A stretch of 33,152 nt of DNA, from NCBI GenBank assembly GCA_028282645.1, contig JANQHM010000068.1:1-33152 (forward strand). The letters are read 5' to 3'. This document shows positions 24,068-30,139 of the stretch, piece after piece. The position numbers were made by a program, and so were the translations under genes. The DNA is from Candidatus Gastranaerophilales bacterium. Lineage in GTDB: Bacteria > Cyanobacteriota > Vampirovibrionia > Gastranaerophilales > JANQFW01. Under the pieces are notes generated by a model. That model had not been told where the DNA came from. It worked only from the letters and a program-made list of their open reading frames with translations, and did no database searches. Positions within the stretch are counted from its first letter, which is position 1, and each line of letters starts with the position of its first letter.

Positions 24068-26629
24068 TTAACTATTATAATCATTAATTATTTTTTCAGC
24101 CAGACTCCAATTATCCTCTGGTGTTGGATTGTTACATATATTAAAGATTAGATATGCTAATTGCTTTGTATTGTCTTCATCTCTTTTAGTTAAATCAATA
24201 CCTTTTTTAATTATGTCTTTTGCAAGTTTTTTGCTTAAATCAGGAGCAATATGAAGGTTATTTAGTATAGGGGGGAGTTTTTCATTAATTATATAGTTAT
24301 CAATTATTTTTTCAGCTAGAGCTAGATTCTCATCAGCTGTAGGTTGAGGATATATATCGAAAATTAACTCTTGTAGCTGCTTTTTAGTTTCTTCATCTTT
24401 GTAGTTATCAATATTAACAGGTTTTTTTCTTATTTTTATTGCTAAGTATTCGCTTAAGTAAAAAGCAATATTAAAGTCCTCTCCGATTAATAATGAAATA
24501 AGCGATAAAATATCCACAAGATCTTTAAGATCTTTTAAACTATCTTTAGCTACAAAAGGTCCAACACTTTCAATTTTAATTGAAGGATCTAAGTATATAA
24601 TTTTTTTTAATTTTTCAAAATGTTTATTAATACCTCTATTATTAATAAAATATTTAAAATCTTCAATATTTTCATTTTCATCTTTATATAAGTTTTTTAA
24701 ATCTTCCCTTTGGAATAAAAGCAAAAATTTTAACCTGTTATCTTTAACTACAATTTTTTTATCCTGATCCCTGATAGTGTTTATTATGTATTCATATGCA
24801 TTAAAAAGAAGATATAATATTCTGTAATCCTTTAACTGTTCAGGCTGTTTTTTATTGTTTATGCAAAATCTTAATTCTGAAAAGTATGTTCTTATCTTTT
24901 TAGTAAGATCATAATCAAAATGTGAAAATTCTTGAGTTCGGTTTTCTATATCAGGAGAAATATTGCCTTGAGCTTTATCATCTTGATCTTTATCATCTTT
25001 AATATTATCCCAATTTTTAAATACAACCAGGTATAATATTAAAATATAATAAATAAACTCTGTTTTATTTTCTTTGCTATCAGGTTCTTTAATTATTTTT
25101 AATTTTTTCAATAATTTAATTTCAAAACAATATTGAGATATTAAAAATTCTATTGTTCTTATATTAGTAGTAATATGACATATTATTCTTAATAATAATT
25201 TTACTAATGATTCATCTTTCTTTAAAAGAATGTCATTAAAATAATATGAAGAATGTTCATTAAAATAGGAATGAAGATTCTCTTGATACTTGTCAGGAAG
25301 ATAAAAGCATTGTTTAAATATTTTTTTTAAATACTCATTACTATCAAAGTAACTGCTTGAATTTTTATCATTATTATTGATGCTAGCATCACCCATTAGC
25401 GGGATCTTTAAAATTCTTTCCTTATCAAAAGCAACAATAAACAAACAATTATCAATTCTAAATAAGCTTCCCAGAGCTTTAACAAATGTAATAATTTCAT
25501 TGCTATCACATCTATCTATATTATCAACGAATATAACAAGTTTTTCCTGGTTATTATCATTAATCTCATCATTATGATTTAATTTATTATGTGTTAACAC
25601 TTCATATATTAAATATGGAATAAAAACAAAAAATGAGATGAAGAAAAAAATTATATTAAGAAAAACTAATAAAACCTGGCTAGAAGGCTTTAGGTTTAAA
25701 AAAATAAGAGTATTTTCCAATAGTGGATTGATTTTATTACTTAACAAAATATAAAAAATAAAAATGGAAATAGCTGTTATAAATACAGAAGATATTTTAT
25801 TTCTAAATATTTTTGTAACTAAATCACTTAAAAAAAATTTTTGTAACCAAATAGAATAATAATCATCTTTTTTTGATTTAAAAAAAGAGTTATCATTATC
25901 TTTTAGACTGTTTAACCTGGCATTTTTATACAATTCTTCGTCATTTAACCACGAACTTATTATATTTCCCAGATAATTCTGAAATAACTTTTCATTATAT
26001 TCAGAATTTTCTTTATAATAATTTAAATATAATTTATTTAAATTTAATGAATATTCAAAAATATTGCCGGGAGCCCTAAGCTTAATTTCTCCCTGATATA
26101 TAGAATTAAATATCGCGGGTATTGAAATATAAACCCTGTCCAGCTTAAAGCAAACATATGCAATCGGAAAAAAGAGCACTGCGTAAAGCTTATTAAAAAA
26201 AGGAATTTTTTTACCGTTATCATTTTTAATAATTGGGTAAAATTTTTCTTTATACTCTTCATCAGCTTCTATACTATTCATTATTTCGTTCAATAATGAA
26301 AGTAAAACACTTTTTTTACAGCTGCAAGCTGAACTAAAAGCATCAAAGTTTATTATTTTAATTTTTTGATTTAATAAATTTTCATTTTTTTGATTTAATA
26401 AATTTTTATTTATTTGGTTAATTAAAGTTGTTTTCCCACTCCCCCAACTTCCAAATATTGCTATGGAAAAAAAGTCTTCTTTTTCAGGGTTATCTTCTTT
26501 TTTTTCGGATTTTTCAGGATTTTTTCCTTCATTGTTTGATTTCTTTTTAGGAAGTATTATATCAGTTATAATTTCAGTAATAGTATCGGCATAACCCTTA
26601 AAGCTAAAGGATATTTTTTTATTACCCAT
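24068..26629 (-). CDS. KAP-family P-loop NTPase, membrane-embedded
   Basis: An 853-aa protein. Walker A is GSWGSGKTT (60-68); Walker B is LVIFVDNIDRC (364-374), followed by the LFIVAFDKE strand typical of KAP NTPases. Between A and B are hydrophobic segments at about 145-162, 278-298 and 318-346, the usual KAP layout of membrane helices inserted in the NTPase. A charged linker (28-52) precedes Walker A. The C-terminus holds two related units, about 752-779 and 824-851, of the form L-x-x-x-I-F-x-I-x(7)-(D/E)-N-x-x-L-A-E-K-I-I. This W/L-x-x-A-E pattern is the one repeated in the divergent neighbour. GAGGAA lies 5 nt before the ATG. Some KAP proteins, such as PifA of F plasmid, exclude phages; an immune role here is inference. 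Confidence 0.88.
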   Translation of the reverse strand: MGNKKISFSFKGYADTITEIITDIILPKKKSNNEGKNPEKSEKKEDNPEKEDFFSIAIFGSWGSGKTTLINQINKNLLNQKNENLLNQKIKIINFDAFSSACSCKKSVLLSLLNEIMNSIEADEEYKEKFYPIIKNDNGKKIPFFNKLYAVLFFPIAYVCFKLDRVYISIPAIFNSIYQGEIKLRAPGNIFEYSLNLNKLYLNYYKENSEYNEKLFQNYLGNIISSWLNDEELYKNARLNSLKDNDNSFFKSKKDDYYSIWLQKFFLSDLVTKIFRNKISSVFITAISIFIFYILLSNKINPLLENTLIFLNLKPSSQVLLVFLNIIFFFISFFVFIPYLIYEVLTHNKLNHNDEINDNNQEKLVIFVDNIDRCDSNEIITFVKALGSLFRIDNCLFIVAFDKERILKIPLMGDASINNNDKNSSSYFDSNEYLKKIFKQCFYLPDKYQENLHSYFNEHSSYYFNDILLKKDESLVKLLLRIICHITTNIRTIEFLISQYCFEIKLLKKLKIIKEPDSKENKTEFIYYILILYLVVFKNWDNIKDDKDQDDKAQGNISPDIENRTQEFSHFDYDLTKKIRTYFSELRFCINNKKQPEQLKDYRILYLLFNAYEYIINTIRDQDKKIVVKDNRLKFLLLFQREDLKNLYKDENENIEDFKYFINNRGINKHFEKLKKIIYLDPSIKIESVGPFVAKDSLKDLKDLVDILSLISLLIGEDFNIAFYLSEYLAIKIRKKPVNIDNYKDEETKKQLQELIFDIYPQPTADENLALAEKIIDNYIINEKLPPILNNLHIAPDLSKKLAKDIIKKGIDLTKRDEDNTKQLAYLIFNICNNPTPEDNWSLAEKIINDYNS

Positions 26630-26728
26630 TTAAATTCCTCAAAAAAATAAATTTATAATTGTAAAATTTTAAATTTTTTATTACTATAAATAAAATATAT
26701 TTAACTTGCAACTACGAAAGAGAAAAAA
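26630..26728. promoter_or_regulatory. Shared divergent promoter region, KAP / DUF2934-like genes
   Basis: The 99-bp gap is the only upstream DNA for both genes and is almost pure A+T. TATAAA-like boxes occur on both strands, but no -35/-10 pair can be chosen with confidence. The layout predicts co-regulation. Confidence 0.45.
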
Positions 26729-27394
26729 ATGAATACTAAACCTGGTGATAAACCTGATAAATTTATTAAAGAAATTCCTGGTGATAAGCCTTATAAATTT
26801 ATTAAAAAAATTGGAAAACATAAGGAGAATCTAAGTGTATTAACGGAAGTATATTGGCCTTGTCTTTATAAAATTACAGAGGAATTGCTGCCATATTATT
26901 ATTCTAAAGATATTTATAGACAAGGATGCTCGGCAGATGATAACTGGCTTGATGCTGAAAAAACAATGCTTGAATTATTTATTGCAGCCTATTATGAATC
27001 TATTAATAATAACTACCGAAGCAAAGAAGGGCATTGGTATTATGTTGAAAATAAACTAAACTGGATTAGAAAAAGAGCTTATGATATCTTTGCTAAGCGC
27101 AAGAGTAATCATGAGCATAATTGGTATTTAGCAGAAGAAGAGTATAAAATAATTGAGTTAATGGCTTACTATAATTACCTGGATAAAATGTTTAATAGTT
27201 CGATTAGTAATTGGGAGGAAGCTGAAAAAAAATATTTAAGCTCTAAAAATAAAGTTAATTTGCAAGACAAAGTTGAACAAGTACGCTGTTTAGCTTATAA
27301 ATTAAGTAATAATGACAACACAAACCATGAGGCGGAATATTATTGGTATAAAGCGGAGCATCAATACAGACATAAAATAATAGAAAATTTGTAA
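26729..27394 (+). CDS. DUF2934-like repeat protein with five W-x-x-A-E units
   Basis: A 221-aa soluble protein. The N-terminus has a 12-residue direct repeat, PGDKPDKFIKEI and PGDKPYKFIKKI (5-28). The rest carries five Trp-centred units: NWLDAE (W73), HWYYVE (W103), NWYLAE (W132), NWEEAE (W162) and YWYKAE (W206). The first four are 29-30 residues apart. Between them lies I/L-x-x-x-A-Y, as in IRKRAYDIF, which fits the DUF2934 pattern (RAY...HW..AE). Two such units also end the divergently transcribed KAP NTPase, so the two proteins may bind each other or a common ligand through this motif. No catalytic motif is seen. The ribosome site is weak (AAAGAG). Confidence 0.75.
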   Translation: MNTKPGDKPDKFIKEIPGDKPYKFIKKIGKHKENLSVLTEVYWPCLYKITEELLPYYYSKDIYRQGCSADDNWLDAEKTMLELFIAAYYESINNNYRSKEGHWYYVENKLNWIRKRAYDIFAKRKSNHEHNWYLAEEEYKIIELMAYYNYLDKMFNSSISNWEEAEKKYLSSKNKVNLQDKVEQVRCLAYKLSNNDNTNHEAEYYWYKAEHQYRHKIIENL

Positions 27395-27465: not shown

Positions 27466-27666
27466 GTATAACTAAAATAGTTAAAATGGCGGATTTAAAA
27501 AAAATCAAAAATTATATAATTAGAACTACTGCTATATGTTAAGATTTATTAATACACATTGTTAAGATATTTAAATACTTATACATATTTAATGTTAAAA
27601 AAGCAATCAAGATGCAATATTTATCTTTATATTTATAGCAACAACTTAATTAAAGGTATACCTATT

Positions 27667-27987
27667 ATGAATTATGAAACAACTCTTATTAAATTTTTAT
27701 ATAAACTGGATTCAGGGCTATATAAATTATCAAAAGACCAATTTTTTAGTAACGATGTAGACATTTTTGTAAATACAGTTAATAACGATATTAATATAAA
27801 TAGTGAAATGATTAAATTTCTCCTTAGATACTTGTGGGAGAACAGATATATAGCTTTTCAGGATGGCCAGGCTATCGTAACAGAAAAAGCGAAAGCCGAA
27901 CTTTTGAATAAATATGAATCACAACTGAATTCTAGTGAGATTAAAAAGGGCGATTTAAAAGTTTTATATGATAAAATAACTGCATAA
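27667..27987 (+). CDS. Small winged-helix-like protein
   Basis: A 106-aa protein starting MNYETTLIKFLYKLDSG. The longest frame begins 36 codons earlier, but that part is unlike a real N-terminus, and AAAGG lies about 9 nt before this ATG. The segment INSEMIKFLLRYLWENRYIA followed by FQDGQAIVTEKAKAEL looks like helix-turn-helix plus a beta wing, as in small DNA-binding regulators. No motif proves this. It lies 270 nt after the DUF2934-like gene on the same strand and could regulate the island. Confidence 0.55.
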   Translation: MNYETTLIKFLYKLDSGLYKLSKDQFFSNDVDIFVNTVNNDININSEMIKFLLRYLWENRYIAFQDGQAIVTEKAKAELLNKYESQLNSSEIKKGDLKVLYDKITA

Positions 27988-28117: not shown

Positions 28118-28276
28118 ATGAAGAATATTTTAATCATATCTTTATTATTATTCCTGTCTCTTACTCCTGTGCTTAGATGCTCAGTTTTTTACAACCTTGA
28201 ACAAACTGATACAAGCGCGTCAATTATGCCCGAAGCATATTTTTGTGAGTATATAAAAACTTTGTACTCAAAATAA
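28118..28276 (+). CDS. 52-aa secreted or membrane peptide
   Basis: A short frame with a convincing signal peptide: MKN, the hydrophobic core ILIISLLLFLSLTPV, then LRC at residues 19-21. The mature part would be about 32 residues with two or three Cys (SVFYNLEQTD...AYFCEYIKTLYSK). The -3 to -1 residues do not fit a good lipobox, so lipid attachment is doubtful. AAGGAA lies 8 nt before the ATG, and the strong promoter just described ends 34 nt upstream. Its last 9 nt overlap the end of the convergent activase gene. No homologue is known to me. Confidence 0.6.
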   Translation: MKNILIISLLLFLSLTPVLRCSVFYNLEQTDTSASIMPEAYFCEYIKTLYSK

Positions 28277-29026
28277 CCCCTTCAATAATACATAACGACC
28301 TAATGGAACGACATCGCAGTATAATTTTAAAGTTTCCGTAAAGCAATTATTGCTGCAAAATCCGCCTGATAAATACATTTTCTGTGGCTTTTTGGCGAAT
28401 TTCCACGTATTGTAAGCGATACCGTGCAAATATTTGGCTATAGCTATATCGGCCGGGGTGTTTTTGGATATGTCATCCATTATTTTTTCCATTGCAAAAA
28501 CACCGCAAACTAAGGGTATTTTTTCGGTTTGTATTGATATTTTATTAGGGTCAACATTGTAGAATTTACATAACATATCTACAGTTGCGCCTGTTACGCT
28601 GCCGCAACTGCTGTTCCAGTCAAGGTCTTTGTATTTTCCGTCAATAAATTGTACCCATTTTAAATCTCTGCTGCCTATGTCTACAATTGTTGCGTCTTTC
28701 AAGTTTTTAACCAGTTTTTTTGCTCCGTAAGCCAGTGATATAACTTCGTTTTCGTAGTAGCCGCCACTTTTTATTCTTTTTTTTACCATATGCCCGGTTG
28801 CATTGTCGAATTCTACGGGTAAAGTCGCGGCTAAAGTACTTGGTATTAAAAATAAATTTCCGAAAAATTTTTTATTATCTTTATCATAAAAAAACTTTGA
28901 TTCTTGTATTTGGTATTGTTGAAAGTCTTTATTTACAGATAATATAATACTTTTAAAATCTGCTTTACAGCTTATTTCAAGAATTTTACTCCAGCTTGTC
29001 CCTGCATCAATTATTAATTTAGTCAT
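28268..29026 (-). CDS. BadF/HgdC-type ATPase (2-hydroxyacyl-CoA dehydratase activase-like)
   Basis: A 252-aa ASKHA-fold ATPase. Phosphate-1 motif IIDAGTSWSK (5-14), phosphate-2 VDIGSRDLKWVQ (115-126) and LSGGF (219-223) are in place. The two cysteines that bind the inter-subunit [4Fe-4S] cluster in HgdC-type activases have counterparts: Cys141 in NSSCGSVTGA and Cys174 in PLVCGVFAMEK. Family members use ATP to push one electron into a partner dehydratase or reductase. No recognisable dehydratase subunit is in the window; the upstream gene (30-nt gap) is the likely partner. Its 3' end overlaps the 52-aa peptide gene by 9 nt, tail to tail. Confidence 0.82.
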   Translation of the reverse strand: MTKLIIDAGTSWSKILEISCKADFKSIILSVNKDFQQYQIQESKFFYDKDNKKFFGNLFLIPSTLAATLPVEFDNATGHMVKKRIKSGGYYENEVISLAYGAKKLVKNLKDATIVDIGSRDLKWVQFIDGKYKDLDWNSSCGSVTGATVDMLCKFYNVDPNKISIQTEKIPLVCGVFAMEKIMDDISKNTPADIAIAKYLHGIAYNTWKFAKKPQKMYLSGGFCSNNCFTETLKLYCDVVPLGRYVLLKGLF

Positions 29027-29932: not shown

Positions 29933-29976
29933 AATTTTTCTCTCCGGTATTTTGCTTATAGTCATTACCTTTTATG

Positions 29977-30069
29977 GGTGATGGTCATCACCTTTCTTAT
30001 GTCATCGCTGTAAGCTTTTGATATAACTTAAGTTTACTTGTAAGCATCAGTACTCAACTGACCACTACC
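29977..30069 (-). repeat. R1-c, full-length REP-like palindromic repeat
   Basis: Nearly identical to R1-b: hairpin GGTGATGGTCATCACC (29977-29992), TTTCTTATGTCATCGCTGTA, two TGTAAGC repeats and the end CAACTGACCACTACC. It lies 71 nt downstream of the Wzz-like gene stop and 44 nt upstream of the 44-aa gene start. Confidence 0.8.
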
Positions 30070-30139
30070 CTTTTATGTTATGCTATATATTTTTTTATAT
30101 CAATACACTTTATTATGTAAATTTAATGTTTAAATTTTT

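Follow-up and report, generated by a model that had tools for sequence, protein, structure and literature searches.

A predicted DUF2934-like repeat on a membrane KAP NTPase and on its divergent neighbour in a Gastranaerophilales genome

Two divergently transcribed genes of a Candidatus Gastranaerophilales bacterium encode proteins that carry the same kind of small repeat unit, twice at the C-terminus of a membrane NTPase of the KAP family and five times in a neighbouring 221-aa protein. The locus raises the question of whether the two proteins form one system, as the initial annotation had proposed, or whether each has separately acquired a unit that circulates more widely. The window, by which is meant the whole 33,152-nt stretch analysed (GenBank assembly GCA_028282645.1, contig JANQHM010000068.1), corresponds to contig C305 of a 3.1-Mb genome in 307 contigs. 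The open reading frames, strands and coordinates were found as first annotated, and the ORF coordinates leave a divergent intergenic region of 99 bp at 26630-26728. Promoter-like sites within this gap did not rise above the shuffled expectation, and a terminator scan likewise gave nothing above shuffles.

The NTPase is an 853-aa protein encoded on the reverse strand at 24068-26629. Its assignment to the KAP-family P-loop NTPases is upheld by Pfam PF07693 (E=7.1e-25; 88.3 bits, against a curated cut-off of 20), with a match that includes residues 349-497. The translation contains both a Walker A (GSWGSGKTTL) and a Walker B (LVIFVDNIDRCD) motif; the Walker A stretch lies at residues about 59-68 (26426-26455, reverse strand) and the Walker B stretch, LVIFVDNIDRCDS, at residues about 367-379 (25493-25531, reverse strand), inside the 349-497 match. 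A hydropathy scan places two hydrophobic helices at residues 277-301 and 315-348 (25586-25801, reverse strand), both between Walker A and Walker B, which is the known KAP architecture. With the membrane crossed twice, the C-terminal tail would be found on the side that also holds the NTPase.

PifA and Tmn are KAP P-loop NTPases of the same build, in which two membrane helices interrupt the NTPase domain. For Tmn, a KAP NTPase, two transmembrane domains are part of the published description (PMC11846954); its likeness to the protein studied here is one of architecture only. PADLOC returns PifA (1.6e-13) and QatA (5.9e-11), both confined to the NTPase stretch, and neither PifA nor QatA has full-length similarity to the window KAP. 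The QatA equivalog model NF041923 scores 30.5 bits where 600 are needed, and the PifA match, rather than extending over most of the profile, consists of two stretches, the best of which covers profile positions 37-106 of 720. What sets the window protein apart from known KAPs is its tail of two DUF2934-like units together with its five-unit neighbour.

This neighbour is encoded on the forward strand at 26729-27394. Its five DUF2934-like units, at 26879-27376, are marked by W73, W103, W132, W162 and W206 with the residues and spacings originally given, and in the search of the organism's own genome they score E=1.2e-11, 3.5e-9, 2.6e-11, 4.3e-11 and 1.3e-11, respectively. The protein is made up of these units and a short N-terminal repeat, a 36-nt tandem duplication (26741-26812, forward strand; two times 12 aa) that reads PGDKPxKFIKxI twice, is 92% identical and appears recent. 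Against DUF2934 (PF11154) the whole protein reaches 16.8 bits, below the curated cut-off of 22, and no other family match passes its cut-off. A structure model is helical throughout at low confidence (pLDDT 62.6).

The two tail units of the KAP protein were also correctly placed at residues 764-779 and 836-851. In their full extent, the first occupies residues 752-779 (24293-24376, reverse strand) and has a leucine, L769, at the position of the tryptophan, whereas the second, at residues 824-851 (24077-24160, reverse strand), retains it as W841. The two agree in 15 of 28 residues and 55 of 84 nt, so their duplication is not recent; 60 shuffles of the tail give at most 10 identical residues. 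The profiles used for the genome search were built with the KAP sequences left out. A six-frame search of the 3.1-Mb genome with such a profile gave matches at E<=0.1 in only three proteins, namely the 221-aa protein with its five units, a three-unit protein of 108 aa from contig C57 and the KAP tail, the last at 24092-24166 with E=0.0019, which becomes 7.5e-4 with a broader profile (A7). Within the protein, residues 822-850 score 15.6 bits against the KAP-free profile.

The tail match might be no more than a resemblance between helices rich in lysine, asparagine and isoleucine. This explanation would account for the first KAP unit, which lacks the tryptophan, is missed by the family profile and is recognised through its likeness to the second, and for the behaviour of a profile made from the partner's five units alone, which gives the full-length KAP protein 7.0 bits, inside the shuffle range (maximum 8.4). 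Against it, the KAP-free profiles single out, genome-wide, the very gene that sits beside the five-unit protein, none of 10,000 KAP shuffles reaches the observed score (their maximum being 10.1 bits), and the two KAP units corroborate each other. Chance is hence considered very improbable, and the claim of a real shared repeat has held, with the genome-wide search, the shuffles, the KAP unit pair and a 42-nt core described below in agreement. Because the partner-only profile scores the KAP protein within noise, the link between the two proteins runs via the wider unit family.

The units of this family are predicted to be DUF2934-like helix-loop-helix repeats. The relation to DUF2934, suggested at the outset, is borne out by weak matches, at E<=1, in nine of the 14 unit proteins, the best (1.5e-5) in a stand-alone family of short proteins; another unit, that of a restriction-like protein discussed below, straddles the cut-off of 22, with 24.2 bits in the genome search and 20.7 by hmmscan. 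The helix-Trp-x-x-Ala-Glu pattern of DUF2934 is common to the window units, whereas tandem arrays of three to five units, with helices shared between units, distinguish the window family. To our knowledge DUF2934 has no known function, and a full-text literature search for DUF2934-like units gave just four mentions, all in passing. When 13 stand-alone relatives are aligned, of which 11 have three units and two have two, the tryptophan, the alanine and adjacent positions are invariant or nearly so, and in the three-unit family the C-terminal unit is conserved while the neighbouring genes vary. From this alignment AlphaFold2 models the three-unit protein as all-helical (pLDDT 93.7), with helices at residues 6-24, 30-58, 62-87 and 93-107 and with tryptophans 34, 66 and 97 near helix starts. 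The model suggests that n units give n+1 helices, which are taken to pack antiparallel on account of the hairpin loops, and each tryptophan is predicted to open a long helix common to the next unit. A fold search with this confident model gave nothing significant (best E 0.74 against the PDB and 1.9 against viral structures), a sequence search of solved structures yielded no relative of the units, and NCBIfam holds no model for the stand-alone family.

Beyond the window, the unit occurs both by itself and in fusions. A stand-alone unit protein of 107-108 aa is present in several families of the order, across the 383 genomes searched, in neighbourhoods that include RelA/SpoT-like, rubrerythrin-like, argC and other genes (flanking ORFs named by eye); one 108-aa three-unit member of this order-wide family lies near argC, argJ and argB (L008:3838-4161). 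The unit is also found in three fusions other than the KAP protein, each time at or near the C-terminus. One is an Eco57I/type IIG-like protein (genome G016, L012:1354-2382; Eco57I Pfam 1.5e-11, PADLOC type IIG 8.3e-33). The other two, in genomes G055 and G211 (L100:5687-9594 and L099:7388-9143), are proteins with four transmembrane helices, counted by eye, which end in one unit and directly follow an MvdC/MvdD-like ATP-grasp peptide maturase; the G055 locus has a HEPN/RES gene and an integrase fragment alongside. In both genomes this terminal unit is the only one, a further G211 match at E=0.51 being noise. At E<=0.001, 386 genomes sampled across the phylum gave only the organism's own genome and G055, and named genomes, viral contigs, phages and plasmids gave no KAP or unit relatives by sequence. 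Judged by these occurrences, the repeat is a mobile module of the order, found alone, in arrays and fused, and not private to the KAP pair. The description of the repeat as rare thus applies to its own genome, with three proteins, and fails as a mark of the pair.

Is the KAP tail nonetheless especially close to the units next door? At the DNA level there is some sign of it. A 42-nt core taken from the last KAP unit was compared with all 42-mers of the window on both strands. Its best non-self match is the first KAP unit (31/42), followed by two partner units, unit 1 at 28/42 and unit 3 at 25/42, with the next at 24. These two partner units, as the best window matches outside the KAP gene, together with the internal duplications in both genes, would fit a history in which units were copied between adjacent genes at a fast-changing, AT-rich spot while the KAP protein acts alone; Tmn is an example of a KAP system made of a single gene (PMC11846954). 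Any such copying would have to be old, given 28/42 nt at best, and the retention of the Trp and Ala-Glu core in most units, amid diverged surroundings, speaks for selection on the unit; we regard this explanation as unlikely. At the protein level, the KAP units taken as isolated stretches reach 15.4 and 16.7 bits when matched with the 4-TM tails; with the neighbour's units the values are -0.3 and 14.2 bits. The full-length protein scores 8.7 and 11.6 bits against 4-TM tail profiles (shuffle maximum 8.9). As far as profile comparison goes, the neighbour's units are therefore no closer to the KAP tail than the rest of the family is, and a derivation of the KAP units from those of the neighbour was dropped, since the profiles show no special closeness.

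Whether the two genes belong together also depends on how often they meet. The search for further divergent pairs, which the initial annotation had called for, turned up no second example, whether among the 383 genomes of the order or in phage and plasmid sequences. At E<=1e-6 a KAP profile has matches, some of them not strong, in 116 of the 383 genomes, and none of the 30 best KAP loci carries a unit; most KAPs occur without unit proteins and most unit proteins without a KAP. That homologues of each gene might occur mostly without the other had been named beforehand as evidence against a joint system, and at the family level this is the pattern found. Within its own genome, however, two of the only three unit proteins are adjacent. 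The only sister species (92% complete) has neither the KAP nor any unit. A clean insertion site was sought there and rejected: the gene pair of the left flank sits beside RuvC in the sister species and on the right flank the contig ends, so that no empty site can be demonstrated. From these comparisons, membership of the unit family is supported for the KAP protein and the 221-aa protein each, whereas a private bond between them is not supported.

In a different arrangement, the KAP and the 221-aa protein would have taken their units separately from the genome's pool and each would dock to a third cellular partner common across the order, no mutual contact being needed. The order-wide three-unit family, with its conserved C-terminal unit and varied neighbours, would be consistent with such a partner-binding role, as would the single unit per genome on the 4-TM proteins of G055 and G211 and the fact that the 4-TM tails match the KAP units no worse than the neighbour's units do. 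It leaves the adjacency of two among three unit proteins to coincidence or local duplication. Docking to a third partner has perhaps a one-in-three standing in our judgement and is a close rival of direct binding between the pair.

The genes around the pair are for the most part housekeeping genes, and the check for a defence island found none: the KAP protein aside, PADLOC on the window proteins gives only weak matches, pVip (1.3e-4) on a radical SAM protein and MkoB (0.0056) on a 142-aa ORF. The GC content is 0.236 for the KAP gene, 0.290 for the five-unit partner and 0.249-0.406 for the others; the value of 0.249 belongs to the small ORF downstream of the partner, the window genes besides this and the KAP lying at 0.285-0.406. 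This small AT-rich ORF, at 27559-27987, has weak MkoB and phrog_33967 matches and possibly encodes a winged-helix protein.

Further along the window, 28268-29026 encodes a 252-aa protein with a weak match to the BadF/BadG ATPases, actin-like and, by eye, ParM-like, adjoined by a gene for a 245-aa protein. An intergenic element of about 95-115 bp at 29970-30080 is repeated at least 40 more times in the genome (338 candidates at first look), the copies being nearly all 88-100% identical and one 84%; the sister species has many copies as well. It contains the palindrome GGTGATGGTCATCACC, its RNA folds better than shuffles (z -3.9), and an Rfam search gave no match. Sequence from the end of the contig (32904-33152) recurs at many sites of the sister genome, 66-89% identical, which probably means that the assembly broke within a repeat.

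A direct association of the two proteins would take the following form. Two DUF2934-like helical-hairpin units would have been added to the C-terminus of a membrane-anchored KAP, and the divergent gene next to it would encode a soluble array of five. The units would be protein-binding, the cytosolic tail and the five-unit protein would associate through hairpins that pack like with like, and the five-unit protein may then serve as an adaptor, sensor or brake over an ATP-driven assembly of the membrane NTPase. The model for this is provided by the effector-associated adaptor domains (EADs) known from bacterial conflict systems, small terminal and mostly helical domains carried by an NTPase and by neighbouring proteins, for which like-with-like binding has been proposed (PMC7159879, PMC8195603), KAP being among the NTPases described with them (PMC8195603). 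The likeness of the window units to EADs is one of arrangement, drawn from the published description: an NTPase and the product of an adjacent gene share a small terminal domain.

Several observations fit direct binding. The unit is significant genome-wide and lies on adjacent genes, with three carriers in the genome; the 853-aa protein has a KAP core with its membrane insertion; the three-unit relative is confidently modelled as helices, presumably antiparallel, with tryptophans at their starts; the unit recurs on the Eco57I/type IIG-like and 4-TM proteins, with the HEPN/RES and integrase context in G055; and the KAP gene and the small ORF are low in GC, with the sister species devoid of KAP and unit. 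On the other side, the pair is known from one genome, and the 221-aa partner, unlike the EAD-bearing proteins, has no effector or signalling domain. Moreover, EADs of proximal genes are expected to be closest relatives, a rule towards which the DNA core points within the window and the protein profiles do not, the KAP units being not closest to those of the neighbour. Nor could like-with-like binding between two proteins be the general function of the unit, as there is a single unit in G055 and G211 and only the stand-alone protein in many genomes. Binding between the KAP tail and its neighbour is accordingly put forward as our tentative first choice, held at somewhat under even confidence. 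A phage-defence role of the pair is plausible in view of the KAP relatives (the PifA match and Tmn) and of the type IIG and HEPN/RES contexts. The initial interpretation is thereby partly supported and too narrow.

What is new here is a KAP protein with a DUF2934-like tail beside a five-unit gene, the KAP architecture itself being already known. Tmn is a single-gene, phage-exclusion KAP whose mechanism has been reported as unexplored (PMC11846954), and a tail repeat held in common with a separate neighbour offers a handle on how KAP NTPases of the phage-exclusion type might be regulated. The DUF2934-like units now belong to a family that spans the order, with a fold predicted at high confidence and several fusions, which makes a binding function testable. 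A broader and rather doubtful possibility is that the unit is an undescribed adaptor domain, linking conflict proteins of the order to stand-alone arrays by unit-unit binding; those conflict proteins would comprise the KAP NTPase, the type IIG-like restriction protein and the 4-TM protein with its ATP-grasp maturase. If this were true, the window pair would be the NTPase version of such a link, and it would provide the first function for DUF2934.
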